Positions 1,076 to 41,951 of a DNA stretch of 64,000 bases are shown piece after piece. Source of the DNA: Caldilineaceae bacterium (GTDB lineage Bacteria > Chloroflexota > Anaerolineae > Caldilineales > Caldilineaceae); NCBI GenBank assembly GCA_022827195.1, contig JAJDTL010000045.1:1-64000 (forward strand). The letters are read 5' to 3'. The position numbers and the translations under genes were made by a program. How positions within the stretch are numbered: position 1 is the stretch's first letter; each line of letters begins with the position of its first letter. Below the pieces are notes generated by a model, which saw only the letters and a list, made by a program, of their open reading frames with translations, did not search any database and was not told where the DNA came from.

Positions 1076-2119
1076 ATGGCCCAGGAAATCCGCGAATTCC
1101 GCGTCTCCAACGACGCCATCGACGAACCCGCCGAGCTGCAGCGCCGCATCGCCGACGAAGGCTACCTCTTCTTCAGACGCATGCAGGACCCTGATAAGAT
1201 GCGGGAGCTCCGCCGCCTGATGATGACCCGCATCCAGGAGGCCGGCTGGCTCCTGCCAGACACCGACCCCGTCGACGGCATCGCCGACGTCTCCAAGCAG
1301 TGCACCGAAGGCCACCAGGCCTACACCGCCGGCTACGGACACGTCTACAAGCTCGAAGCCTTCCATCGTGCCGCCCACTGGCCCGAAGTCACCACCATGA
1401 TCGATAAAATCATGGGCCGACCCTCTATGCCCCATCCACAGCAGATCGCGCGCATCTGGTTTCCCCAATACACCGAACACACCACCCCAATCCACCAGGA
1501 CTTCGTCCACTTCCAGGGCAACTTCGAGACCCTCACCAGCTGGGCCCCAATCGGCGACTGCCCCATCGAGCTCGGCGGCCTCGCCGTCATCCCCGGCTCC
1601 CATAAGGTCGGACGCGTCCTCGACCATCACTTCTCCCTCGGCGCCGGCGGCCTGTCCGTCAACGTCGAAGGCGCAGAGGAATTCGACCCCACCTGGTACT
1701 CGACCGACTACGAGGCCGGCGATACCCTAATCTTCCCCGCCCTCACCATCCACGGCGCCCTCCCCAACGAGACCGACGACAAGCTCCGCCTCTCCCTCGA
1801 CAACCGCTACCTCGCTGTCGGCGACCTCATCGCCGACCATATGCTCGACCCCCACGGGCCCAGCGGACTCAACTGGGAACAGGTCTACGAAGACTGGGAA
1901 TCCGACCAATACAAATACTACTGGAAGGATGTCGACAACCCCGTCGTCGCCTTCGACTCCACCTACCGCGATCGCGGCTTCGCCGAAGCGCTCGAGCTCG
2001 CCCGCGCCGGCCACGAACAGGCCCTCTACAGACTCCGCCGCACCATCAGTAGCGACCCCGATTCCGAGGACGCCCAGTCCGCCAGGGAGGTTCTGGCAGA
2101 AATCGGCGCACCCGCCTGA
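1076..2119 (+). CDS. Phytanoyl-CoA dioxygenase (PhyH) family protein
   Basis: 347 aa Fe(II)/2-oxoglutarate-dependent oxygenase of the PhyH family. Visible iron ligands are HQD at residues 140-142 and the distal His at 226 (LTIHGALP), with a basic residue (Arg238) after it for 2-oxoglutarate. ATG 1076 is chosen because AAAGGA lies seven bases upstream; an in-frame TTG at 1058 has no ribosome site. The C-terminus is longer than usual and ends in an acidic, helical stretch. It is followed after 29 bp by a second PhyH gene, probably in one transcript from the promoter at 974. PhyH members hydroxylate diverse small molecules, so the name does not mean phytanoyl-CoA is the substrate. Confidence 0.9.
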   Translation: MAQEIREFRVSNDAIDEPAELQRRIADEGYLFFRRMQDPDKMRELRRLMMTRIQEAGWLLPDTDPVDGIADVSKQCTEGHQAYTAGYGHVYKLEAFHRAAHWPEVTTMIDKIMGRPSMPHPQQIARIWFPQYTEHTTPIHQDFVHFQGNFETLTSWAPIGDCPIELGGLAVIPGSHKVGRVLDHHFSLGAGGLSVNVEGAEEFDPTWYSTDYEAGDTLIFPALTIHGALPNETDDKLRLSLDNRYLAVGDLIADHMLDPHGPSGLNWEQVYEDWESDQYKYYWKDVDNPVVAFDSTYRDRGFAEALELARAGHEQALYRLRRTISSDPDSEDAQSAREVLAEIGAPA

Positions 2120-2148: not shown

Positions 2149-3114
2149 ATGAGTCTGTCCGCAAACGAACTGGGCCTCTTCCATGCCCAGGGCTACCTCC
2201 TCAAACCCGGCCTGTTTTCTGACGAAGACCTGCAGCCTCTGCGCGCCGCCATAACCGAGATCATCGACCGCGAGGCCCGCGTCCCCTGTTCAGAAGGGGA
2301 GCTGACGCAACTCTACACTGATGAGCCCTTCGGCAAGCGGCTCGCCCGCATCCATGCCGAAAGCCCCGCCGCCGGCCGGCGCATCGCCCTCGCCGTCATG
2401 GGCAAAGGCGGCGGCGGCTTCAAAGGGCCCGCCATGCTGCAGACCATCCGCCACGCCCCCCTCCTCTCCTGCATCGAAAGCCTCGTCGGCCCCGATATCG
2501 TCGGCTCCTCCGTCTACCGCATCCGCCCCAAACTGCCCGGCTGGGACCGCGGCGAGGTCCCCTGGCACCAGGACGCCGGCTACACCCTCGCCCACTGCGA
2601 CCGCCACCTCATCGTCACCTGCTGGCTCCCCCTCGTAGACGCCACCCTCGAAAACGGCTGCCTCCACGTCATCCCCAACGTCCACAAAGAAGGCATCCTC
2701 CGCCACTTCACCGGCGGCCACGCCGGCTTTCTCGAAGTCCCCCACGAAGCGCTGCCCTCCCAGGAGCCGGTCGCCGTCCCCATGAACGCCGGAGACGCCC
2801 TCCTCCTCACCAACCTCACCCCCCACGCCTCCTTCGCCAACACATCCGACGTGGTCCGCTGGAGCGTCGACCTCCGCTACCAGGGCGCCGACGTCCCCAA
2901 CAACACCTCCGAAGACCCCGCCGCCTACACTCCCGAACGCGACCCCGTCACCATGGCCTGCTACCCCCCCGAAGCCGACTTCGTCATCCGCGACTCCAAC
3001 AACCCCGCCGGCGAAGTCCGCTCCGCCGAACACTTCCGCCAAATCCGCGACCGCTACGAAAACAACCGCCCCGCCATGCCCGGCCGCGGCTGGACCCCCC
3101 TCCACAACCGCTGA
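2149..3114 (+). CDS. Phytanoyl-CoA dioxygenase (PhyH) family protein
   Basis: 321 aa, second of a tandem PhyH pair. Iron ligands are His140/Asp142 in PWHQDAGY and His226 in LTPHASFANTS; Arg237 is the likely 2-oxoglutarate ligand. The N-terminal YLLKPGLFSDEDL segment and the ENGCLHVIPNVHK strand are typical of the family. Sequence similarity to the preceding paralog is low outside the motif positions, suggesting a different substrate rather than a recent duplication. The ribosome site is weak (the gene starts 29 bp after the previous stop), in keeping with translation from the upstream message. The actual substrate cannot be read from the sequence. Confidence 0.9.
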   Translation: MSLSANELGLFHAQGYLLKPGLFSDEDLQPLRAAITEIIDREARVPCSEGELTQLYTDEPFGKRLARIHAESPAAGRRIALAVMGKGGGGFKGPAMLQTIRHAPLLSCIESLVGPDIVGSSVYRIRPKLPGWDRGEVPWHQDAGYTLAHCDRHLIVTCWLPLVDATLENGCLHVIPNVHKEGILRHFTGGHAGFLEVPHEALPSQEPVAVPMNAGDALLLTNLTPHASFANTSDVVRWSVDLRYQGADVPNNTSEDPAAYTPERDPVTMACYPPEADFVIRDSNNPAGEVRSAEHFRQIRDRYENNRPAMPGRGWTPLHNR

Positions 3115-3173
3115 CCCCTCGCCCCCCGCGCCGCGCCTCGCTCTCGACCGGCAGGCACCAGCTCCCGCAGTCC

Positions 3174-3201
3174 GAATCACAAATCACGAATCACGAATCA
3201 C
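3174..3201. repeat. Heptamer array, four GAATCAC-type units
   Basis: Four consecutive 7-bp units (GAATCAC, AAATCAC, GAATCAC, GAATCAC) in the spacer after the PhyH pair. One of four heptamer arrays in this window, each with a different unit. Confidence 0.85.
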
Positions 3202-3226
3202 GGCCGTTCAGGCCGTTCCGGCCCTC

Positions 3227-3263
3227 CCTTGTGCGGGGGGACACCCCCCGCAACGCCCCCCTG
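3227..3263. repeat. Dispersed GC-rich hairpin repeat, copy 1
   Basis: CCTTGTGCGGGGGGAC followed by ACCCCCCGCAACGCCCCCCTG. The centre folds into GCGGGGGG / CCCCCCGC with a three-base loop. A close second copy lies at 41693-41729, also downstream of a PhyH gene. Its position about 110 bp after the stop of the PhyH pair allows a role in transcript 3' end formation, but there is no T tract, so this is only a possibility. Confidence 0.7.
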
Positions 3264-3347
3264 TAGCAATGCCACCGTGCCCGCGCGAAACCACCCAATC
3301 GCGCGTTCGACCAGCGCCCACCGTCCCTTCCAGTCCCTGGCCACCGA

Positions 3348-3377
3348 CCACTATCCACTATTCACTATTCACTATCC
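3348..3377. repeat. Heptamer array, four CCACTAT/TCACTAT units
   Basis: Four tandem 7-bp units (CCACTAT twice, TCACTAT twice) plus a partial fifth. Same period as the arrays at 3174, 4448 and 27184 but a different unit sequence. Confidence 0.85.
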
Positions 3378-3670
3378 AAAGGTTGCATAAGACCCCAAAG
3401 TGTAGTACAGTAGTTCGAATAACTGTGCCAAATCAATCGCGGCCCAGCCGCAGAGCCATACATGCCAGGATCAATAGGAGCCTCACGCCTCCCGTTACAC
3501 ACAGATCAACACGGCCAAACGCAGGGAACCGCCGCCCTACCGCGATCGCAGTTGCCGCAGCCCTATACCGCCGGTCGTGCCCCCAATTCGAGCCTTGCCC
3601 TGCCCAAACCCGCGTTCAATAGCCGGTATTCGCCGGCACGCGACCGGCCTACACCGCACGCCCCCGCAAC

Positions 3671-3730
3671 CAGACGATCTCGCACAAGAAGCCATTTTCG
3701 ATCGTCTGAGATCGTCTGAGATCGTCCGAA
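3671..3730. repeat. 10-bp phased repeat with an inverted partner
   Basis: ATCGTCTGAG occurs at 3701 and 3711 and continues as ATCGTCCGAA at 3721, an exact 10-bp spacing. CAGACGAT at 3671-3678 is the inverted form of the unit core. Sites on one face of the helix, with an inverted copy 30 bp away, could be protein-binding sites; there is no gene close by to regulate. Confidence 0.6.
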
Positions 3731-4031
3731 TGCGTCGAGTCTAATCAAAGAAATGCCGCGATATCCTGCCCCCCCACCCCCAACCCACATCCGCCCGGCC
3801 CGACCGAACCAAAAGCATCTCAGACTAGAAGCTCTCTCAATCTACCAAAGTAGGTCCCTTATGGAACACCGACCTATTTGCAAAATTGCACATACGAAAC
3901 ACGGACAAATCGCCGCACCCACGTCGGGAAGAAAACTTTGGTCCATTGGGGAAATACTAAATATCCGGATACTGAAAGCCAATCAACGAAAACTCGAGAC
4001 GAACAATGCATCACCACTCCCGAAAAAAATA

Positions 4032-4233
4032 TATGGCGACATTGGAGGACATTGGGGGACATATGTCCCCCTTTAGCGGCACCACGAGAGGCTCCCGGTC
4101 CCGACAGGCTAACGCCCCGGAAATCCGCTATGTCAGGTTCACGCACTCGCAGAAGACGGGACCAACGGCCGGAAAAACCAGGACAGATCTTACAGGTCTC
4201 AAAAAAAGGAAACTCTTGCTTTCATTGGGGAAA
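4032..4233 (+). repeat. Degenerate composite intergenic element, copy A
   Basis: Aligns with the reverse complement of 24791-24990. Shared landmarks in the same order and nearly the same spacing are: a 10-bp array with GAC.TTG units (4037-4066), CGAGAGG (4085-4091), then 33 bp to the identical 17-mer CCGCTATGTCAGGTTCA (4125-4141), then CCAGGACA (4178-4185), then GAAACTCT.G.TTTCAT.G.GGA (from 4209). On the minus strand both copies open a frame beginning M(R/C)EPDIA with GP..SR..AKG further on (here from GTG 4146 down to 3874). Whether it is a decayed small gene or a noncoding repeat is unresolved. Confidence 0.55.
4054..4071. promoter_or_regulatory. Perfect 18-bp palindrome
   Basis: GGGGGACATATGTCCCCC is perfectly self-complementary and sits at the end of the 10-bp array of composite element A. 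The other element copy lacks it. It could be a dimeric protein-binding site or a cruciform-forming sequence; function unknown. Confidence 0.6.
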
Positions 4234-4350
4234 CAGTTAAGGAACGAAAAGCAATAGAAGTAAGACTCAAATCATGTCCATCAGAGAAATCAAACAAATC
4301 CTGGATCAAAAAACTGTCAACTCAATCAAAAAGGCACCCATGAGCAACCC

Positions 4351-4372
4351 TTCGTGCCCCTCCGTGGATAGC
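4351..4372. repeat. TTCGTG-type dispersed motif
   Basis: TTCGTGCCCCTCCGTGGATA closely matches part of the 102-bp repeat at 1-200 and the copy at 6228. Short and noncoding. Confidence 0.55.
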
Positions 4373-4447
4373 ATAGATGTTGCCGGCTCAACCACTCAAT
4401 GCGCTCAACACCAAAAAAGCACAACGAAGACTAGAGCCTCCCGCAGT

Positions 4448-4489
4448 GAACTAAAAACTAGAAACCAAAAACAAGAAACTAAAAACTTA
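4448..4489. repeat. Heptamer array, six AAACTAR-type units
   Basis: Six imperfect 7-bp units (GAACTAA, AAACTAG, AAACCAA, AAACAAG, AAACTAA, AAACTTA) directly upstream of the promoter region of the desaturase-Rieske gene. The A-rich, phase-locked run may also bend the DNA there. Confidence 0.75.
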
Positions 4490-4634
4490 ACCGTCTCCCG
4501 TTCACACAAGTGCAAAATCTACCGTTTTCGACTACAATAGGACAACCGCACACACGATTTCGCGCAAGCCTGTACCCTTTCCGCCCGCTAGGACTTTCCG
4601 AAACGAATCGCCCGTTCCCGAAAGGAGACCACCC

Positions 4635-6041
4635 ATGGCTGTGCAGACCTTTTCCAGAGATTACAGCCTCTCCGGCGGCCACAGCGACGCCGTAGAGCTC
4701 GACGGCGACCGCATCGAACAGCGCATGGAAGAAACCTGGTGGCGCCCGAAACTCACGCGCCAGCAGATGCGCGAAATCATGCAGCGCCGCGACGGACCCG
4801 CATTCTTGCACTTCGGCCTCTGGTTTCTCGTCCTCGCCGGCAGCGGCTACCTAGCCTTCCTCTCCTGGGGCACATGGTGGGCCATCCCGGCCTTCCTCAT
4901 CTACGGCACCATCTACACCTCCTCCGACGCCGCCTGGCACGAATGCGGCCACGGCACACCCTTCAAGACCCACTGGCTCAACGAAGCCCTCTACCACTTC
5001 AACTCCTTCCTCACCCTGCGCGAAGCAATCATGTGGCGCTGGAGCCACTCCCGCCACCATACCCACACCTACATCGTAGGCCGCGACCCCGAAATCCAGG
5101 TCACGCGCCCAGCCGACCTGCTCAAAATCCTGATGGACTTCTTCTACCTCCGCAGCGGCCCACCCGAAGTCTGGCGCGTCATCCGCAACGCCGCCGGCCG
5201 CCCCAGTGACCACGTCCGCGATTTCATGCCCGAACGCGAGCTGCCCAAGATGTACTTGTCCAGCCGCATCTACGTCGCCATCCTCTTGGCCGTCGCCGCC
5301 TGGTCCATCGCCATCGGCAGCTTCCTGCCCATGATGTTCGTCCTCCTGCCCCGCTTCTACGGCGGCTGGCTGCACCAGCTCCTCGGCCTCACCCAGCACG
5401 CCGGCCTCGGCGAAGACACCTACGACCACCGCGAAAACACCCGCACCGTTTTCATAAACCCGGTCTTCGCCTTTCTCTACATGAACATGCAGTACCATAT
5501 CGAGCATCACTCGATGCCCATGACCCCCTTCCACGCCCTGCCCAAGCTGCACGCGGCCGTAAAGGACCAGATGCCGCCGGCCTATACAAGCCTTTGGCAA
5601 TGCTACAAGGAGATGATCCCCGCCCTCATCAAGCAGGCCACCGGCCAACCCGACTACGTCATCCCGCGGCCCATTCCAAAGGACCCCGAGACCGAGGATG
5701 CCGAAGTCGCCAGCGCCCCCGAGGCCGCCGGTGAGTGGATCGAGGTCTGCCCCGTCGAAGACATCGAGGAAGAGGACGTAATCCGCATCGACCACGGCAG
5801 CCGCACCTTTGCCGTATACCGCCTCAAGGACGACCGCTTCTACGCCACCGACGGCCTGTGCACACACGAGTTCGCATACCTCGCCGACGGACTCGTCATC
5901 GACGGCGTCATCGAATGCCCGCTCCACAACGGCCGCTTCGACGTCGCCACCGGCCGCGCCCTGCGCGCACCCGCCTGCGACCATCTCGAGACCTACCCGG
6001 TCGAACGCCGCGGCAACACGCTCTACCTCCGCATCGAATGA
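4635..6041 (+). CDS. Membrane fatty-acid-desaturase-type oxygenase fused to a Rieske ferredoxin (MocD-MocE-like)
   Basis: 468 aa. Residues about 40-335 are a membrane di-iron desaturase/hydroxylase domain with the three histidine boxes HECGH (102-106), HSRHHTH (138-144) and HIEHH (288-292), an extra His255 and hydrophobic segments near 57-97 and 211-240. A Pro/Glu-rich linker (about 343-368) leads to a C-terminal Rieske [2Fe-2S] domain with CTH (409-411) and CPLH (428-431). In rhizobial rhizopine catabolism the desaturase-like MocD and ferredoxin MocE are separate proteins; here both are one chain, so the ferredoxin delivers electrons in cis. AAAGGAG precedes the ATG. The following Gfo/Idh and isomerase genes mirror MocA and MocC. 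The substrate is inferred, not shown; a lipid or methylated sugar alcohol is possible. Confidence 0.88.
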   Translation: MAVQTFSRDYSLSGGHSDAVELDGDRIEQRMEETWWRPKLTRQQMREIMQRRDGPAFLHFGLWFLVLAGSGYLAFLSWGTWWAIPAFLIYGTIYTSSDAAWHECGHGTPFKTHWLNEALYHFNSFLTLREAIMWRWSHSRHHTHTYIVGRDPEIQVTRPADLLKILMDFFYLRSGPPEVWRVIRNAAGRPSDHVRDFMPERELPKMYLSSRIYVAILLAVAAWSIAIGSFLPMMFVLLPRFYGGWLHQLLGLTQHAGLGEDTYDHRENTRTVFINPVFAFLYMNMQYHIEHHSMPMTPFHALPKLHAAVKDQMPPAYTSLWQCYKEMIPALIKQATGQPDYVIPRPIPKDPETEDAEVASAPEAAGEWIEVCPVEDIEEEDVIRIDHGSRTFAVYRLKDDRFYATDGLCTHEFAYLADGLVIDGVIECPLHNGRFDVATGRALRAPACDHLETYPVERRGNTLYLRIE

Positions 6042-6227
6042 GCCAACCCGCCGCGGCGAGGACCCAAGCACCTCCGTCACGGCCTTGAACGAAAATGGAT
6101 CGCATGGCAAACCACGATTCTGACAAGAAGCAGTGCCGCGAGCGCCGGGGTCCTGGCCCCTCCCATCTGCCGGCAGCGCCCTCCGGTGGCCCGGTAGCAA
6201 CTCAGGATGAGCAAATCCTCAAGAGTT

Positions 6228-6267
6228 TTTCTTCGTGTAAATTCGTGGATCGATTAAAGAGTTTGGG
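6228..6267. repeat. TTCGTG-type dispersed repeat, third locus
   Basis: TTTCTTCGTGTAAATTCGTG, then GGAT and an AAAGAGTTTG box, matches the core of the 102-bp tandem repeat at 1-200. It lies in the 284-bp spacer between the desaturase-Rieske and Gfo/Idh genes, so it would be within their transcript if they are co-transcribed. Confidence 0.65.
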
Positions 6268-6325
6268 AAAACTGAACTCTTCGGTCCCATTCGGCATGCT
6301 GTTTCGCTAGCGAGGAACGCCAAGA

Positions 6326-7282
6326 ATGCGAATCGGATTCATCGGCGTAGGCGGGATCACCCGCAGCTACCTGGAAAGCCTCAACAAGCTCTGCCGCCCC
6401 GTCACGGCCGTCTGCGACATCAACCCCGAGACTGCCGCACGCGTCGCCGCCGAACAGGACTGCATCAGTTACACCGACCACCGCGAGATGCTCGCCCGCG
6501 AAGCGCTCGACGCCGTCTTCGTCGCAATCCCCCCTGCCGCCCACGACACCCAGACCCTCGACGTCGTCGAAGCCGGCGCCCACCTCTTCGCCGCCAAGCC
6601 CGTCGCCATGGACCTCGACACCGCCCGCCGTACCGAGGACGCCATCGCCCGCGCCGGATGCGTCAATCAGGTCGGCTACATGGCCCGCTACTCCGACATC
6701 ACCGACCGCGCCAAAGAGCTCGTGCAGGGACGCGAGCTCGGCATGGGCCTCGGCCGCTTTATGGCCCGCATGCCCTCCTCCCATCCCTGGTGGGGCACCT
6801 TCGCCGTCAGCGCCGGCCAGATCGTCGAACAAAGCACCCATCTCTTCGACTGGCTCCGCTTTTTCCTCGGCGACATCGAGTCCGTCCACGCTCTCGGCCA
6901 CGACGGCCCCGATGACGAAATCGCCGACTTCGAAGACTGCACCACAGTCAACCTGCGCTTCGCCGGCGGCGCCGTCGGCAGCGTCATCAGCACCTGCTCA
7001 GCCCGCGTCCACGATACCTTTGTCGCCGAGCTCTTCGGGCGGGAATTCTACCTGCGCCTCAAAATGGACACCGAGCTCATCGGCTACATCGGTGCCGAAG
7101 AGATCTCCTTTCAGGGCGAGGAACGCGGCTACTTCCGCCAGGTCGAGCTCTTCCTCGCCGCCGTCGATGCAAACGACCAGGGCCTCGTCCGCTCATCCTA
7201 CGCCGACGCCGTCAAGTCGCTCTCCGCAACCCTGGCTGCCAACCGCTCGCTCTACTCCGGCCGCGTCGAAACCGTGGAGTAA
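6326..7282 (+). CDS. Gfo/Idh/MocA-family NAD(P)-dependent oxidoreductase
   Basis: 318 aa cytoplasmic dehydrogenase. The N-terminal Rossmann fold shows GFIGVGGITRSY (4-15), Asp31 after the second strand, and AKP (90-92) where most members have EKP; the Lys91 of this motif is the usual catalytic or nicotinamide-orienting residue. The C-terminal half has the family's QIVEQSTHLFDWLRFF segment. A GAGGAA-type ribosome site precedes ATG 6326. It ends three bases before the next gene, so the two are surely one operon. Substrates in this family are sugars, inositols and their amino derivatives; the context with a MocD/E-like oxygenase and an isomerase suggests an inositol- or sugar-type alcohol. Confidence 0.9.
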   Translation: MRIGFIGVGGITRSYLESLNKLCRPVTAVCDINPETAARVAAEQDCISYTDHREMLAREALDAVFVAIPPAAHDTQTLDVVEAGAHLFAAKPVAMDLDTARRTEDAIARAGCVNQVGYMARYSDITDRAKELVQGRELGMGLGRFMARMPSSHPWWGTFAVSAGQIVEQSTHLFDWLRFFLGDIESVHALGHDGPDDEIADFEDCTTVNLRFAGGAVGSVISTCSARVHDTFVAELFGREFYLRLKMDTELIGYIGAEEISFQGEERGYFRQVELFLAAVDANDQGLVRSSYADAVKSLSATLAANRSLYSGRVETVE

Positions 7283-7285
7283 CTC

Positions 7286-8113
7286 GTGAAGATAGGAACG
7301 CTGCAAAACGTTATCGAACAGCCGCTCGACTCCCTCTTCACCACCGCCTCCCAGCTTGGCTTCGACGGCGTCGAGCTCGACTGGAGCGACCCGGATTGGG
7401 CCCGGCCCGGCGGCCGGCTTGCGCCCGACAACCGCCCAACCATCCGCCGCGCCGCCGCCGAAGCCGGCGTTGAAATCCCCTCCGTTGCCGCCCACTTCCT
7501 CAGCAGGGGCGGCATCACACTTGAGGAAACGGAGGCCTTCGGTCTCGAAATCGTCCGCACCGGCATCCGGATCTGCGCCGACCTCGGCGCCCGCTACCTG
7601 CTGGTGCCCTTTTTCGCCGCCGCCGAGATCAAAGGCATCTCAACCGTTTCCCGCCTCGTCAAGAACCTGCAGCAGCTCGCCCCCGACGCCGAAGTCGCCG
7701 GCATTGTCCTCGCCATCGAGCACACAATGCCCGCCGAGCTCACCGCCGAGGTGCTCGACAACGTCAGCTCCCCCAACGTCGGCAACTACTGGGACATGGG
7801 CAACAGCATGGCGCTCGGCGCCGACCCCCTCGAAGAGATCGCACACCTCGGGCCCCGCATCGCCCGCGTCCACGCCAAAGAGTACCACCAGGGCTCCGAC
7901 CCGCCCGGCTCAAGGTACGCGCTCCACTTCGACGGCCTCAACCGCAGACCGTTCGGCCAGGGCGACGTGCCAGTCCCAGCCGTCCTCGACGCCCTCCTTC
8001 AGGTCGGCTACGACGACTACATCGTCCTTGAAACCGGAAAGTTCGACGATCCCGCCGGCTCAGCCCAGGCCGCGCTCAACTACCTGCGAACGCTGACCGC
8101 CGCGCAATCCTGA
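7286..8113 (+). CDS. Sugar phosphate isomerase/epimerase (xylose-isomerase-like TIM barrel)
   Basis: 275 aa of the AP endonuclease-2 / xylose isomerase-like barrel family that includes IolE, IolI and MocC. Metal-binding acids are visible at the ends of strands: AIEHTMP (Glu), NYWDMGN (Asp), HAKEYH (His/Lys) and VLETGKFDD (Glu near the end). The start is GTG 7286, three bases after the previous stop. Members isomerise or epimerise keto-sugars and keto-inositols made by Gfo/Idh enzymes, so these two genes probably act in sequence. Exact substrate unknown. Confidence 0.85.
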   Translation: MKIGTLQNVIEQPLDSLFTTASQLGFDGVELDWSDPDWARPGGRLAPDNRPTIRRAAAEAGVEIPSVAAHFLSRGGITLEETEAFGLEIVRTGIRICADLGARYLLVPFFAAAEIKGISTVSRLVKNLQQLAPDAEVAGIVLAIEHTMPAELTAEVLDNVSSPNVGNYWDMGNSMALGADPLEEIAHLGPRIARVHAKEYHQGSDPPGSRYALHFDGLNRRPFGQGDVPVPAVLDALLQVGYDDYIVLETGKFDDPAGSAQAALNYLRTLTAAQS

Positions 8114-8179
8114 TCGCCCGGCACTGTGGACCGCCAACCAAAGGCAGAACCGTCAGAAAGAGATGCAAGCGAGAGCCCA

Positions 8180-8968
8180 ATGGACTACACAGTTGATGCA
8201 CAGACCTCGCGCCGGCAACCGCAGATCGCCTTGGACGCCTTTACCCGCGACGGCTTCCTCGCCCTGACCGCCTTCCTCACCCCCGATGAGGTGGCCGAGA
8301 CGCGTACCGAGGTCGCGCGCTTCATCCGCGATCGCGTACCGCAACTTCCCCGCGAGCAGGTCTTCTACGAGACCCTTGGCGAGCCTGATACGCTGAAGCA
8401 GATCGTGTACCTATATCAACACGAAAGCTACTTCGAGCGTCTCATGTTCGACAGCAAATTCGAGCAGCTGGCCGAACTGCTCCTGCAGGGCCCGGTTGTC
8501 GGCAAGAACATGCAGTACTTCAACAAGCCGCCCAGGATCGGCAAGGCGACCCCGCCCCACCAGGACGGCTTCTACTTCATGCTCGACCCCTGCGAAGCCC
8601 TGACGATGTGGCTGCCCCTGGAAGCGGTCGACGAGGAAAACGGCTGCGTCCGCTATGTGCGCGGCTCCCACCGCCGCGGCCTACGCCCACACGGCCGCAC
8701 CCAGACACTCGGCTTCTCGCAAGGCGTAACCGACTATGGCACCCCGCAGGACAGGGCCGACGAAGTCGCCTTCCCCGCCCAGGCCGGCGACCTGCTCATC
8801 CACAACGCCATGACGATCCACCGCGCTGACGGCAATCGCAGCGAGACGCGCACGCGCCAAGCCCTCGGATTCGTCTACTATTCGGAACGCGCAAAGGTTG
8901 ACGAAGAAAGGCACGCCGCATATCAGAAGCGGCTTGCCGAGGAAATGAAAGCAAAGGGGAAAATCTGA
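8180..8968 (+). CDS. Phytanoyl-CoA dioxygenase (PhyH) family protein
   Basis: 262 aa. Fe(II) ligands are His127 and Asp129 in PPHQDGFYF and His214 in MTIHRADGN; Arg224 or Arg226 would hold 2-oxoglutarate. The start is uncertain: the frame is open to a GTG at 8126 without a ribosome site, while ATG 8180 gives an N-terminus that begins at the usual distance from the FTRDGFLALTAFLTPDE motif, so 8180 is preferred. It is the last plus-strand gene of the desaturase-Gfo/Idh-isomerase group and may hydroxylate an intermediate of the same pathway. It converges on the minus-strand SDR gene. Confidence 0.88.
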   Translation: MDYTVDAQTSRRQPQIALDAFTRDGFLALTAFLTPDEVAETRTEVARFIRDRVPQLPREQVFYETLGEPDTLKQIVYLYQHESYFERLMFDSKFEQLAELLLQGPVVGKNMQYFNKPPRIGKATPPHQDGFYFMLDPCEALTMWLPLEAVDEENGCVRYVRGSHRRGLRPHGRTQTLGFSQGVTDYGTPQDRADEVAFPAQAGDLLIHNAMTIHRADGNRSETRTRQALGFVYYSERAKVDEERHAAYQKRLAEEMKAKGKI

Positions 8969-9187: not shown

Positions 9188-10171
9188 TCAGTCCTGCACG
9201 CCGCTGGAATAGGCGCTGTCGCCCTCCGCGCGGTCTTCCTCCAGCCCGCCAGCGTCAACCCACGCTTTGATGCTCAGAATCGTCTCGCGCATCGAATAGC
9301 GCGGCTCGAAGCCGAGCAGCCGCTTTGCCTTCGACATGTCGAACTCGATCTCCCCACCCTGCGCCATACTCCAGGGAAAGCCGGTCTCAACCCGGATGCC
9401 GGGAATGATGCTTTCGAGGATAGCGGCGAACTCGGATCCGCGCGTCGGGCCAGGTCCGCAGCAGTTGAAAAACTCACCTGCTGCATTCGGATGCTCGCCC
9501 ACCGCGATATGCATGCGGGCCACGTCCCGCAGGTCAACATAATGGCACAGCTCGTCGAGCGAGAAGTGGGGAATCTGGACCGATTCACCCTCCGCCAGCA
9601 TCTCCGCGAACTCGCGCCAACCGCGCCCGCCGCCGCGGCCGCCCGGTCCCACCACGGCCGTCAAACGCAATGCAGAAACCGGCAGCCCGTATTGGTGGTA
9701 AAAGGTGAACGCCAGCACCTCCTGCAAAAGCTTCGTTGAGGCGTACATGTCCTTCGGCCGCGCTGGATGCTTCTCGTCGACCGGCATGTAGTCAGGCGGC
9801 GCGAACTTTGTCGCCGGATACCATTCATACGCGGAAATGCTGCTGGACAGAACGAACCGTTTCACCCCCGCATCGCGGGCGTACACCAGCAGGTGTGTCA
9901 GCCCCAGCAGGTTGACCGTTACCATCTGCAGCGGGTCGCCCGTATCACCGGGCAGAGACGCCACATGGTAGATGACATCCAATTCGAGACCGCCGAGAAC
10001 GGCGCCTATCGAGTCACTAGACGTGATGTCGCCCTGCAACCACCTGCCGGGCATGCCCTCAGGCTGCCGCGAGCGCCCCAATACAAGGACTTCGTCACCG
10101 CGCGATGCAAGTTGACGAACAAGCTCGCGACCAATGTATCCTGAACCGCCGACTACGAGAGATCTGGTCAT
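9188..10171 (-). CDS. NAD-dependent epimerase/dehydratase (extended SDR)
   Basis: 327 aa. The GGSGYIGRE motif (8-16) is the extended-SDR nucleotide-binding loop, and Tyr143-x3-Lys147 (YASTK) with a Ser around 111 forms the catalytic triad. The DIT near 48-50 and the HVASLPGD segment fit the sugar-nucleotide epimerase / dihydroflavonol reductase branch. AGGAG precedes ATG 10171. It is the last gene of the long minus-strand block and follows the GMC oxidoreductase by 27 bp. Members reduce or epimerise sugars, lactones or aldehydes; which one applies here is not evident. Confidence 0.88.
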   Translation of the reverse strand: MTRSLVVGGSGYIGRELVRQLASRGDEVLVLGRSRQPEGMPGRWLQGDITSSDSIGAVLGGLELDVIYHVASLPGDTGDPLQMVTVNLLGLTHLLVYARDAGVKRFVLSSSISAYEWYPATKFAPPDYMPVDEKHPARPKDMYASTKLLQEVLAFTFYHQYGLPVSALRLTAVVGPGGRGGGRGWREFAEMLAEGESVQIPHFSLDELCHYVDLRDVARMHIAVGEHPNAAGEFFNCCGPGPTRGSEFAAILESIIPGIRVETGFPWSMAQGGEIEFDMSKAKRLLGFEPRYSMRETILSIKAWVDAGGLEEDRAEGDSAYSSGVQD

Positions 10172-10198: not shown

Positions 10199-11803
10199 TC
10201 ACGAATTTCGCTTGCGATTGAGACGCTCCGCCATGTGCTCGCCTATCATCACCGTCGTCAAGTGCGTATTGGCGCGCGGCACCTCAGGCATGATCGAAGC
10301 GTCGATCACGCGCAAGCCCTCGACCCCTTTGACGCGACAGTCCGGGTCAACCACCGCCAGCGGGTCGTCGGCCGCGCCCATGCGGCAGGTCCCGACAATG
10401 TGATAGCAGTCCGCACACTCCTGCAGCAGCCACGCATCGAGTTCTGCGTCATCCCCGAAACTCTCGATGCCGCGGCGATCCTCGCTGAGGGGATCTCCTA
10501 CCGACATCTCTTCTGAAATCTCCTCGAAGGCGGGGTGCCTTCCGATCGCAAACAGCCGTCGCACGCCGTCACGCAATCGGACCAGGTCTCTTTCGTCCGT
10601 CAGCATGCGCTCCTCGATGACCGGATTGACTCCGGATTCGGGCGAGGTAAGGCTAAGCCTGCCCTTCGAAAACGCCTGAAACACCGAGACCACAACGATC
10701 CCCCGTTTGAGCGCCTCTCCCTCGATGCCGTAAACGTTGCAGCTGGCAATCAGCATGTCATTAAAGCCCGTCCCGGCCAGGCCCGATGTATAACGAAGGC
10801 AGCAGTTGGTGCGACGGGCATGAGCGCTGCCGGCCTGCGCCTCGGGGCGCAACGAAAGGTGAAGCCCGACGGCCGGGTGGTCGAGGACGTTTTCGCCGAC
10901 GCCCGGCAGGTCAACGAGCGGACCGACGCCCAGCGATTTCAAACTCTCCGCCGGTCCGATACCGGAGCGCATCAGAACGGCCGGCGAATGGACCGCCCCG
11001 GCGCACAAAAGGACCTCCTTGCTACTGAAGATTGTCGGCGCGCTATCGCCAGAACTTTGCCCCGCTCCAACTGCCCCGCCCTGTAGGCGCACGCCCGTCG
11101 CGCGGCCTGCCTCAAGCTCAATCCGTTCGACCAGCGCATCGCCAATGATCTCCAGATTCGGGCGGCCGCGCGCCGGCTCCAGGTAGGCGTCATTGGTCGA
11201 GACGCGTACGTCATCTCTCATCGTTAGAGCAACCGGCGAAATCCCAGTGCTGCCCGGAGCGTGGCAATCTTCCGACCAGCCGTGTCCGAAGTCGAGCGCG
11301 GCCCTTTGCAGAGCTCGGTCAACCGGCCCCCACTCCTCCAGGGGGATGCGTTGAATCGGAATCGGGCCGCCGCGACCGTGATACGCAGGGTCACCATAGT
11401 TGAGATCGTCTTCCAGGCGAATAAAGGAGGGCAGGACCTCTTCCCCTGACCATCCCCTACAGCCCATCTTCACCCAGCGGTCAAAGTCGTCCGGCTCACC
11501 CCGCAGCGCGATCAGACCATTGATGGCCGAGCTGCCCCCTAAGCCGCGTCCTCTGATGAACTCTCTCGGCTCCTGCTCCTCGCTGCGCCTCGCCGCGAGG
11601 TCAGGCCACTGGTACAAAGGCTTGTACGCCTCCGATAAGAGAATCTCGCCGTGATTGTGGCTCCGCATCGCCGCCGGCGCCTCGCTAGAGCGGTAATCAG
11701 GACCGGCTTCAAGCAACAGCACCGAAACCGAAGGATTTTCCGTAAGCCGGGCCGCCAGAACAGCGCCCGCCGAACCTGCGCCAACGATTATGTAGTCGTA
11801 CAC
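10199..11803 (-). CDS. GMC-family FAD-dependent oxidoreductase (choline-dehydrogenase-like)
   Basis: 534 aa. The N-terminal dinucleotide fold IIVGAGSAGAVLAARL (5-20) with LLLEAGPD binds FAD, RGLGGSSAINGL is the first GMC signature and GAVHSPAVLMRSGIGP the second. Catalytic residues are His468 (CYHIVGTCRMG) and the RANTHLTT segment around 510-517. No signal peptide, so it acts in the cytoplasm on an alcohol or sugar. The start is GTG 11803; the ribosome site is poor. Together with the SDR downstream and the AtuA-like pair upstream it may oxidise an alcohol of a terpenoid-like or sugar compound. Confidence 0.9.
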   Translation of the reverse strand: MYDYIIVGAGSAGAVLAARLTENPSVSVLLLEAGPDYRSSEAPAAMRSHNHGEILLSEAYKPLYQWPDLAARRSEEQEPREFIRGRGLGGSSAINGLIALRGEPDDFDRWVKMGCRGWSGEEVLPSFIRLEDDLNYGDPAYHGRGGPIPIQRIPLEEWGPVDRALQRAALDFGHGWSEDCHAPGSTGISPVALTMRDDVRVSTNDAYLEPARGRPNLEIIGDALVERIELEAGRATGVRLQGGAVGAGQSSGDSAPTIFSSKEVLLCAGAVHSPAVLMRSGIGPAESLKSLGVGPLVDLPGVGENVLDHPAVGLHLSLRPEAQAGSAHARRTNCCLRYTSGLAGTGFNDMLIASCNVYGIEGEALKRGIVVVSVFQAFSKGRLSLTSPESGVNPVIEERMLTDERDLVRLRDGVRRLFAIGRHPAFEEISEEMSVGDPLSEDRRGIESFGDDAELDAWLLQECADCYHIVGTCRMGAADDPLAVVDPDCRVKGVEGLRVIDASIMPEVPRANTHLTTVMIGEHMAERLNRKRNS

Positions 11804-38243: not shown

Positions 38244-39203
38244 CTATGGGCTGGCAACCAGCATCCTTTTCTCGACCTCATCTCTGGTGGGCATCCGTGT
38301 TTTGTGCACCCCTCCTGACCGTTCGATGACATGAATTACTGCTGCGGCGCCAAGTCTGGCCGCCCATCGCGCGTCGCCGCTGCGCCGGTACCCGCTCAGA
38401 AAGACGGTCGAAAATGAGTCGCCTGCCCCGGTTGTGTCTATTACCTCGCCGCTCTGGGCCGGCACCCGCTCCACGCCTTCTGCCGTCGCCAACACGCAGC
38501 CGCGCTCACCCAGCGTCAGCAATCCGATGGTGGCCCCCCAGTCCACGAACTGGTTCACGACCTTCTCCTCGCCGGCGGGAGTCGCCACCGACTCCGCTCC
38601 CAATAGGTGGCCGCAGTCTTCCACGCTGGCGCGCACGATGTCGCAAAGGGAGACCAGTTCCCGCAGCTCTGTGGGATCGCGCCGTTCCTCTGCGTTTGGA
38701 TGCTGCCGCGAATGCGCGCCGCCGTAGCCGCCCAGGTCGATCGCCAGCGTCCCGTCCAACGCGGCCAGGTCGCGGATCGTGCCCACGGGCACATCGTGGT
38801 CCATTGTCGCGATATAGAAAACGGAGGCAGTGTGGTAGTCGGGAGGGATGTCGTCAAATGAAATCGGCGGGGCCTTCTGAGGGTACTGAATCTCCTTCTC
38901 ACCCGACGCCGCGTAAATCAACTTTGTCGTCGTCGTACGGTCGCCCGGCCTGACAGAGACCCCGCGCATGTCTACCTGCGCGTCGCGAAAAGGCTGCAGC
39001 AACCCGTCCGGCATGTCCTCACCGATGATCGTGACGATGCCAACTCGCTCCCCCAGCCTTCCGGCCGCGACCGACCCATAGGCGACTGGACTTCCCAGGA
39101 CCGGGCCGATCGTCCGATCCGGGAAATGGATCATCTCCTTGACGATGTGGCCGATCAGGACGATATCAGGCTGGCAACTCTCTGAACCTCCGCAAGGCTC
39201 CAT
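38244..39203 (-). CDS. PfkB-family carbohydrate kinase
   Basis: 319 aa cytoplasmic sugar kinase. VAYGSVAAGRLG near 40-51 corresponds to the first PfkB signature region, and DTTGAGDSFSTVFLSGY (256-272) is the second, with Asp262 as the catalytic base and GAGD as the anion hole. Members phosphorylate ribose, fructose, ketodeoxygluconate, 5-dehydro-2-deoxygluconate or inosine. Being next to an inositol-phosphate synthase and a sugar ABC system, it could trap an imported sugar or inositol derivative. Starts 48 bp after its upstream neighbour stops. Confidence 0.9.
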   Translation of the reverse strand: MEPCGGSESCQPDIVLIGHIVKEMIHFPDRTIGPVLGSPVAYGSVAAGRLGERVGIVTIIGEDMPDGLLQPFRDAQVDMRGVSVRPGDRTTTTKLIYAASGEKEIQYPQKAPPISFDDIPPDYHTASVFYIATMDHDVPVGTIRDLAALDGTLAIDLGGYGGAHSRQHPNAEERRDPTELRELVSLCDIVRASVEDCGHLLGAESVATPAGEEKVVNQFVDWGATIGLLTLGERGCVLATAEGVERVPAQSGEVIDTTGAGDSFSTVFLSGYRRSGDARWAARLGAAAVIHVIERSGGVHKTRMPTRDEVEKRMLVASP

Positions 39204-39251
39204 TCGCGCCGCCCTTCGAGTTTGGAAGAGAACAGCTCCTGCTACAGCGTG

Positions 39252-40313
39252 CTATCTATCGCGCTTTCCCTGGATAAACTCCTCCAGCATCTTCAAGGCT
39301 TGCTCGTCGACAATCTGCTGCGGAGGATGTTTGCAGAAGAAGGCGGAAGCGCTTGTCAGCACCCCGCCCGTCCCGCGGTCGAGCGCAAGGCGGCAGCATC
39401 GGATCGCGTCAACCGCGACACCGGCGAAATTCGCACTGTCCTCTACCTCTAGCTTGGCGTCCAGAATGATCGGCGCATTGCTGAAGTTGGCCAGCTCAAA
39501 ATAGAAGCGGGCTGTCTTGCGGTCCTCCATGTTGGGCACATGCGCGAAACCGGCCGAGACATCCGCTTCGTAGGGGATGAGCGTCTCCACAGCCCCCCGC
39601 TTCGTCTTCTCCTTGCTCTCCCCGCGGTGAATGAGATTGTAAAAGTCTGTGTTGCCGGCGTAGTTGAGCTGGTACGTCTTCTTGATCTGTATGCCGCGTG
39701 CCAGCATCGTCTCCACCATCGCCCGGTGCAGAATCGTGCCCCCCAGCTGGCTCTTGACGTCATCTCCCACCAGAGGGACTTTGCGCATCTCCGCTTCCCG
39801 CGCAAAGGACTCGTCGCATACGATCAGTTCCGGCATGCCGTTGACAAATGCAACGCCCGCTTCGAGTGCGGCCTCGGCATAGATGCGGGCCGCCTCCGCC
39901 GACCCGGTCGGCAGCATGTTCAGCATTACCTCCGCGCCCGCTTCTCTGAGGGCGGCGACAACATCCACCGGCTGCCCCACTGCTCGCTCCATCTGACTTT
40001 GAAGGTGCGGGGGCGCCCCATCGGCGACGGGCCCCATGAGGACCTCTACCCCGCTCTCCGTCAGCTCAATGTCGGGCACTCGGTAGGCGTTGTTGGGGGG
40101 CGCGAAGATGGCATCAGACAGGTCCAACCCAACTTTGCACGCATTGACGTCAAATGCGACAGCCGGCTTGATGTCGGTTACGTCGTAGCCGCCCATTTCG
40201 CGGTGCATCAACCCGACTGATTCACCACCCTGCGCGTAGTAATGAAGACCCTGTACCAAGGCGCTTGTGCAGTTGCCGACGCCGACGATGGCAAGCCTGA
40301 TTTCCCTGGACAT
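39252..40313 (-). CDS. Inositol-3-phosphate synthase family protein
   Basis: 353 aa, the size of the short archaeal/actinobacterial myo-inositol-1-phosphate synthases, which turn glucose 6-phosphate into inositol phosphate with bound NAD. Visible hallmarks are IVGVGNCTSALVQG (10-23), GDDVKSQLGGTILHR and KKTYQLNYAGNTDFYNL with the catalytic lysines, and a C-terminal DAIRCCRLALDRGTGGVL. In this context the product might feed inositol lipids, a compatible solute or an inositol pathway. The start ATG 40313 has only a weak GAGAAG site. Confidence 0.9.
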   Translation of the reverse strand: MSREIRLAIVGVGNCTSALVQGLHYYAQGGESVGLMHREMGGYDVTDIKPAVAFDVNACKVGLDLSDAIFAPPNNAYRVPDIELTESGVEVLMGPVADGAPPHLQSQMERAVGQPVDVVAALREAGAEVMLNMLPTGSAEAARIYAEAALEAGVAFVNGMPELIVCDESFAREAEMRKVPLVGDDVKSQLGGTILHRAMVETMLARGIQIKKTYQLNYAGNTDFYNLIHRGESKEKTKRGAVETLIPYEADVSAGFAHVPNMEDRKTARFYFELANFSNAPIILDAKLEVEDSANFAGVAVDAIRCCRLALDRGTGGVLTSASAFFCKHPPQQIVDEQALKMLEEFIQGKRDR

Positions 40314-41546: not shown

Positions 41547-41692
41547 CGCGACGGACCAACCTCGCCTGCACCTGAGAACATAAAATCACAGTCCTGAGCA
41601 ACGGAGCCATGAACAGTCCCCCGTTCGTCCTCCGGCAGATAGGGGGAATACGTCTCTTTGGACCCTTTTGGGCGGACGGGCCTGCAGCCCTT

Positions 41693-41729
41693 CCTTGTGC
41701 GGGGGGACTGCCCCCGCAACGCCCCCCTG
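41693..41729. repeat. Dispersed GC-rich hairpin repeat, copy 2
   Basis: CCTTGTGCGGGGGGACTG then CCCCCGCAACGCCCCCCTG; matches 3227-3263 except at the loop. GCGGGGG pairs with CCCCCGC. Same orientation as copy 1 relative to an upstream plus-strand PhyH gene. Confidence 0.7.
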
Positions 41730-41951
41730 AGCTACGCCTACCGCCGCGTTCAATATCAAGCGGTCCAGTGCAGCCTGCGGCCCATCGCACCTTCTCCAAT
41801 TCAGCCAGTGCCGCGGTCTCGGTAGGAGCAGGCCTTGTGCCCGCCCTTTGCCTCTCCCCAAGCCGGCGGAAAATTCTACCCGCCGCCGGCATGGGTTTCT
41901 CGCTAGACGATTCCCGCCATGAGAGAGTCGCACACGATTTCCGAAACCGAA

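Follow-up and report, generated by a model that had tools for sequence, protein, structure and literature searches.

The question raised by this locus is what a desaturase-type oxygenase carrying its own Rieske ferredoxin does in a Caldilineaceae bacterium, and whether the enzymes encoded directly behind it serve the same pathway. The protein (468 aa) is encoded at positions 4635..6041 (+) of the window, by which we mean the whole 64,000-nucleotide stretch of DNA analysed here; the window is the start of a contig (C27) in a 5.2-Mb genome whose closest relatives are metagenome-assembled genomes of Caldilineaceae (Chloroflexota). A preliminary description had taken the protein for a fusion of MocD- and MocE-type proteins with MocA- and MocC-like neighbours, and had proposed that the cassette degrades an O-methylated or aminated inositol or sugar. 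The analysis presented below leads us to view the protein as a MocDE-type membrane di-iron oxygenase with its electron donor in cis, which, as an even-chance proposal drawn from sequence comparison, would oxidatively remove O-methyl groups from a methylated cyclitol or sugar.

Pfam places both domains within one reading frame: an FA_desaturase-type domain with three His boxes (aa 80-322, 4872..5600 (+); PF00487, 127 bits) and a MocE-like Rieske [2Fe-2S] domain (aa 367-455, 5733..5999 (+); PF00355, 69 bits). The ATG of this open reading frame (ORF) has a GAAAGGAG-like ribosome site upstream. The His boxes (H102ECGH106, H138SRHH142 and H288IEHH292) and the Rieske ligands (C409-x-H411...C428-x-x-H431) lie exactly where the preliminary description had put them, at 102-292 and 409-431 of a single protein. 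Alignment shows His 102, 106, 138, 141, 142, 255, 265, 288, 291 and 292 to be conserved across the MocD clade. Those belonging to the three His boxes of the membrane di-iron fold (H102/106, H138/141/142 and H288/291/292) are kept throughout the alignment, and H265 and H300 are marks of the MocD clade, with one exception at 300, F or Y standing in their places in the outgroup. An assembly artefact can be dismissed as the source of the fusion, since the stop-free single frame is found again in other loci of the genus, in its sister genus and among Anaerolineae. An AlphaFold2 model (pLDDT 75, pTM 0.77) contains a domain of long helices and a Rieske domain, with low confidence in the N-terminal 31 residues and in the linker at 353-364. 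The modelled Rieske domain superposes on the ferredoxins of carbazole dioxygenase (CarAc) and naphthalene dioxygenase (NDO) with Z about 19 and a root-mean-square deviation of 1-1.5 A. The desaturase domain by itself, searched against PDB sequences, returned just weak, unrelated matches, and the top chains in a fold search with that domain, 8xks_K and 8xqw_M, come from FtsHi motor complexes.

The kinship of the oxygenase was addressed with two trees, a maximum likelihood tree of 67 desaturase domains (tree 1) and one of 45 rows (tree 2), with an outgroup of proteins recognised as desaturases from sequence alone. In tree 1 the window protein, the other Chloroflexota fusions and the split MocD of Paraburkholderia form one clade (99/96), which is sister to the clade holding the MocD of rhizopine loci with support of 95/96 in tree 1 and 89/86 in tree 2. 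A 100/100 branch cuts these MocD-side clades off from the other FA_desaturase proteins, two of the window genome included, and the desaturase domain groups with no other FA_desaturase protein in the set. The oxygenase part is 45-47% identical to the MocD of moc-type loci; relatives with published names are the plasmid-borne mocD, mocEa and mocFa of Rhizobium etli CIAT 652. These results bear on a quite different identity, that of a lipid or hydrocarbon desaturase or hydroxylase in which a Rieske donor stands in place of cytochrome b5 or rubredoxin. The Pfam label FA_desaturase and the long helices of the model would suit such an enzyme, as would a WS/DGAT acyltransferase that lies a few kb upstream in some same-genus loci. 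Both trees disfavour it, however, through the split from other FA_desaturase proteins and the kinship with MocD, and the conserved core of the locus is devoid of lipid genes, so that we consider a lipid enzyme highly improbable.

The Rieske domain points the same way. In a Rieske tree of 109 columns, with several forks unsettled, it falls with MocE and away from the free Chloroflexota Rieske proteins. Its best NCBIfam model is that of the MocE-family 2Fe-2S ferredoxins, TIGR02377 (MocE_fam_FeS), which it matches as a C-terminal domain at 132.3 bits, just below the curated cut-off of 136.15, the next-best model scoring 78. The MocD and MocE character of the two halves is thus borne out by both sets of trees, and we are confident that the oxygenase is of MocD/MocE type.

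Fused forms are found in Caldilineaceae and Anaerolineae, in Colwellia, Marinomonas and Pontiella, and in a third clade, of Chloroflexota (G283, G377 and G434), which adjoins the rhizobial MocD in the tree. On tree 2 the fused and separate states require at least three changes, all forced by starred branches, with gain indistinguishable from loss. Two members of the third clade carry a triple fusion of desaturase, Rieske and reductase: G377 (L081:7284-9569, 761 aa), whose third part is an NqrF-type FAD/NAD module (327 bits against a cut-off of 295), and G434 (L097:4507-6813, 768 aa), whose third part is a reductase stretch matching that of L081. Within the window's own genus the fusion is present in all 16 of the other genomes searched, and in four of four of the sister genus. 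Most same-genus loci carry two tandem fusions, which share 76-79% and 82-84% identity with that of the window; a remnant of a second copy was looked for in the gap at 6042-6325, and none was found. The genus also has a third paralogue of the fusion, diverged to about 54% identity, in a different setting, an ATP-binding cassette (ABC) transporter context (L098:7475-9016 and L099), where, judging from ORF starts, it adjoins an apparent amidase and ABC permeases. Our literature search found no papers on fused desaturase-Rieske proteins or on demethylation of O-methyl-inositols by the MocD/E family.

The fusion is followed on the same strand by a Gfo/Idh oxidoreductase (6326..7282 (+); PF01408, 79 bits), an AP_endonuc_2 triosephosphate isomerase (TIM)-barrel isomerase/epimerase (7286..8113 (+); PF01261, 116 bits) and a PhyH-family dioxygenase, PhyH C (8126..8968 (+); PF05721, 113 bits), confirming the order given in the preliminary description. 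The successive gaps of 284, 3 and 12 bases suggest one transcript. The Gfo/Idh protein keeps K91 and H172 of its family motif in the alignment, and the E145-D170-H196-E249 metal-site pattern of the TIM barrel is invariant in 11 orthologues. All 15 of the further loci of the genus that offer sufficient sequence have the fusion, Gfo/Idh and TIM genes in this order, at 61-93% identity, while the flanking genes differ; genes of the SDR, PhyH and GMC families generally lie beyond the three. Naming the neighbours MocA- and MocC-like holds at the superfamily level only: the Gfo/Idh protein is 22-24% identical, over its N-terminal part, to the MocA of two loci of rhizopine-cluster layout (L071 from Phyllobacterium zundukense and L072 from Rhizobium lentis), and the TIM protein is 26% identical to an IolE-type protein of L072, which is not a verified MocC. 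Both are nearer, at 38% each, to a linked haloarchaeal pair, the nearest found. The Gfo/Idh protein scores 120 bits with the IolG model TIGR04380 (cut-off 355); its nearest solved structures are DgpA1, of C-glycoside 3-dehydrogenase type and the nearest PDB chain (68 bits), and inositol dehydrogenases. The predicted TIM fold matches UlaE (TM 0.80), D-tagatose 3-epimerases and also the 3-keto-glucoside 4-epimerase YcjR.

These affinities leave room for the Gfo/Idh-TIM pair to be an independent module, engaged for example in 3-keto-glycoside chemistry like that of DgpA or the partners of YcjR, with the oxygenase a mere neighbour. The haloarchaeal pair is accompanied by ThuA and enolase-type genes and by no MocD or other oxygenase, and the sister genus keeps the fusion with no Gfo, TIM or PhyH gene beside it. 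Moreover, the window genome has 115 Gfo/Idh, 74 AP_endonuc_2 and 148 PhyH matches, an extreme load for 5.2 Mb, and about 2.8% of it falls within 5 kb of one or other of 15 closely spaced Gfo-TIM pairs; because of this abundance, the arrangement in any one genome is weak evidence. What argues for a joint pathway is the constancy of the fusion-Gfo-TIM order across the genus amid changing flanks, which we regard as moderate evidence, together with the short gaps. The link with the dehydrogenase and isomerase genes expected by the preliminary description is seen genus-wide and is lost in the fusion-keeping sister genus. The combination that would have told against that description, a desaturase domain placed among lipid desaturases together with a missing link, is not what the trees and the same-genus loci show. 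We think it somewhat probable that the Gfo/Idh and TIM enzymes work in the same pathway as the fusion, and less probable, though a serious alternative, that they form a module of their own.

The best-known relative of the system is MocD-MocE-MocF of rhizopine catabolism, from Sinorhizobium meliloti L5-30 and Rhizobium leguminosarum, whose clusters are described as mocDEF, mocR, mocBA and mocC (PMC10107442). The layout of L071 and L072 (Gfo/Idh, sugar-binding protein, MocR-type regulator, MocD, MocE, MocF) agrees with this description, and it is by gene layout alone that we call these strains rhizopine-type. The window shares with them a MocD-type oxygenase, a MocE-like Rieske domain and nearby Gfo/Idh and TIM genes. 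It differs in that oxygenase and ferredoxin are a single chain, in that its Gfo/Idh and TIM proteins are distant from MocA and from a protein of IolE/MocC type, respectively, and in its host, which is a member of the Chloroflexota and not a rhizobium. In addition, no MocB or MocR gene was found among the genes neighbouring the fusion, and no MocF relative was found in the window or near the fusion in same-genus loci. The rhizopine pathway proper, to which the preliminary description had likened the cassette, is absent here, and rhizopine itself is a most improbable substrate. For the rhizobial route, a role for MocDEF has been proposed; our literature search found no biochemistry on it.

Among other MocD/E homologues, inositol and sugar genes recur as neighbours. 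In rhizobia LacI and Msi119 genes adjoin mocDEF (PMC3538637), and in Pseudomonas syringae mocDEF-xylA2 occurs without mocCABR (PMC5132102). These loci resemble the window in linking a PF01261-type isomerase to the oxygenase in the absence of mocABC; they differ in having separate subunits, and the TIM proteins that accompany split mocDEF, which resemble one another at 50-92%, are not the TIM protein of the window. In the Paraburkholderia loci L022-L027 the order is LacI, mocD, mocE, mocF, a xylose isomerase-like gene and a TIM gene, with further genes conserved beyond; a Burkholderia cenocepacia locus (L077) combines mocDEF with LacI, xylose isomerase-like, TIM and IolG genes (IolG, 406 bits; cut-off 355), and in R. 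leguminosarum (L074) MocD is accompanied by Gfo/Idh, TIM, iolD and iolE. One-carbon genes recur as well. In L071 and L072 the series mocA-B-R-D-E-F is followed by PurU (330 bits in L071; cut-off 286) and by a PanB-like gene whose product scores under the PanB cut-off, leaving its PanB function doubtful. Beside the triple fusion of G377 lie sugar-type ABC genes and genes for a corrinoid protein, URO-D, a pterin-binding methyltransferase and MTHFR, and URO-D genes adjoin the fusion in three Kiritimatiellota (L031:2623-5183, L032 and L033). The tally of inositol and one-carbon neighbourhoods is a raw count over about ten lineages, drawn mostly from loci outside the window protein's immediate clade. 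If a methyl ether gave up formaldehyde or a methyl group, the inositol/sugar company of these relatives and their one-carbon company would alike be accounted for. The inositol or sugar connection suggested by the preliminary description is in this respect supported by the rhizobial and Burkholderiaceae loci, from which a substrate for the window protein can be proposed only by analogy. Kiritimatiellota are largely anaerobic, and an O2-dependent fused MocDE is an odd find in that group.

Some homologues invite another proposal, namely that the MocDE-type oxygenase hydroxylates an amino or guanidino compound, in the manner of GntB, or tailors a natural product, with no demethylation. The desaturase domain and its homologues match the model of GntB, annotated as an L-arginine hydroxylase, at 22-53 bits; a distant Ruegeria homologue sits with amino-acid ABC genes, the third paralogue of the genus lies by the apparent amidase and ABC permeases, and the three PhyH oxygenases and the GMC gene of the window would also suit tailoring chemistry. 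The cut-off of the GntB model is, however, 380 bits, the relatives in question are either not members of the fusion's clade or remote from it, and the immediate sister clade, that of Paraburkholderia, is partnered by LacI, xylose isomerase-like and TIM genes. We therefore hold amino-compound hydroxylation or tailoring to be unlikely.

Returning to the demethylase, the following scheme can be drawn. An NAD(P)H reductase would reduce the Rieske cluster of the fusion, which would pass electrons to the di-iron centre, held by His ligands in the desaturase-type domain within the membrane. The di-iron centre would then hydroxylate a small polar substrate, most likely on an O-methyl group carried by a cyclitol or sugar, and the resulting hemiacetal would release formaldehyde, completing an oxidative O-demethylation. 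The Gfo/Idh enzyme may oxidise the freed hydroxyl and the metal-dependent TIM barrel may epimerise or isomerise the resulting ketone, with the PhyH dioxygenases perhaps working on these molecules or on related ones. The activity of the fusion and the order of these steps are proposals throughout. That the substrate is small and polar rather than a lipid appears likely; a methylated or otherwise modified cyclitol or sugar is the class we infer; and on O-demethylation as the reaction our judgement is evenly balanced. Two full iolD genes elsewhere in the window genome indicate that released inositol could be used, which is short of showing inositol to be the product.

Several points weigh against this scheme, beginning with the bare fusions of the sister genus and the genome's wealth of Gfo/Idh, TIM and PhyH genes described above. 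Neither a Reductase_C (MocF-type) nor a FAD_binding_6 (FNR-type) reductase, the two types that commonly serve Rieske ferredoxins, was detected in the 97%-complete genome. One-carbon genes of the kinds searched, URO-D, PanB and PurU included, are absent near the fusion in the window and in same-genus loci, and no gene of the window genome reaches the AdhC formaldehyde cut-off. Finally, no assayed member of the fusion's immediate clade was found in the literature.

A methyl ether on a sugar or an inositol is a chemically stable group that stands in the way of breakdown. The oxidative demethylation known from marine sugar degraders is a three-part system of a P450 6-O-methyl-D-galactose demethylase, a ferredoxin and a reductase (PMC10033563). 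The analogy with the window protein is functional only, lying in the oxidative demethylation of methoxy sugars; that enzyme is a haem P450, whereas the present one is a desaturase-type di-iron protein, and the two have no sequence kinship. Taking all lineages together, we put forward tentatively, and with less than even confidence in the statement as a whole, that MocD/E-type proteins may be widespread non-P450 O-demethylases of methylated sugars and cyclitols, repeatedly fused with Rieske domains and, in two Chloroflexota, with a reductase, and that an agarase-side fused form may replace the P450 6-O-methyl-galactose demethylase in Pseudocolwellia agarivorans. The two- and three-domain single-chain forms would allow the reaction to be tested directly with a single gene and would offer a handle on the substrate range of the under-studied MocD family. 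They would also point to the diet of sponge-associated Chloroflexota, the sponge origin of the Caldilineaceae relatives being our own reading of their bin names.

The P. agarivorans locus (L028:1728-9392) encodes two Agarase_CBM proteins, an FNR-type reductase and the fused MocDE in series, with a Zn-alcohol dehydrogenase and a PocR/AraC-type regulator nearby, and resembles the neighbourhood of the P450 6-O-methyl-galactose demethylase in porphyran degraders (PMC10033563). The Zn-alcohol dehydrogenase of L028 and L030 was considered as a formaldehyde-detoxification enzyme and set aside, its best model being the NDMA-dependent alcohol dehydrogenase, below cut-off.

Since the window begins at a contig end, the upstream context of the fusion is limited. 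It holds two further PhyH-family genes, a 2-oxoglutarate dioxygenase, PhyH A (1076..2119 (+); PF05721, 51.6 bits), whose orthologue precedes the fusion in L004, L011 and L020, and PhyH B (2149..3114 (+); PF05721, 85 bits), a conserved upstream partner whose orthologues in relatives (70-86%) are either immediately upstream of the fusion or separated from it by a few kb. A search of the gap at 3115-4634 for a gene remnant and an Rfam scan of the window for RNA elements gave no matches. Downstream, orthologues of PhyH C (72-92%) follow in most same-genus loci. A NAD-dependent epimerase/dehydratase (9188..10171 (-); PF01370, 118 bits) is weakly linked, recurring in L004 only, and a GMC oxidoreductase (10199..11803 (-); PF00732/PF05199), with orthologues (64-87%) at the corresponding position in most loci of the genus, marks the edge of the cassette. 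Elsewhere in the window, a PfkB-type kinase adjoins a myo-inositol-1-phosphate synthase (38244-40313 (-)), and a 57-base repeat occurs at 3221-3277 and 41687-41743 with 88% identity, with copies also in L006, L007, L012 and L015.

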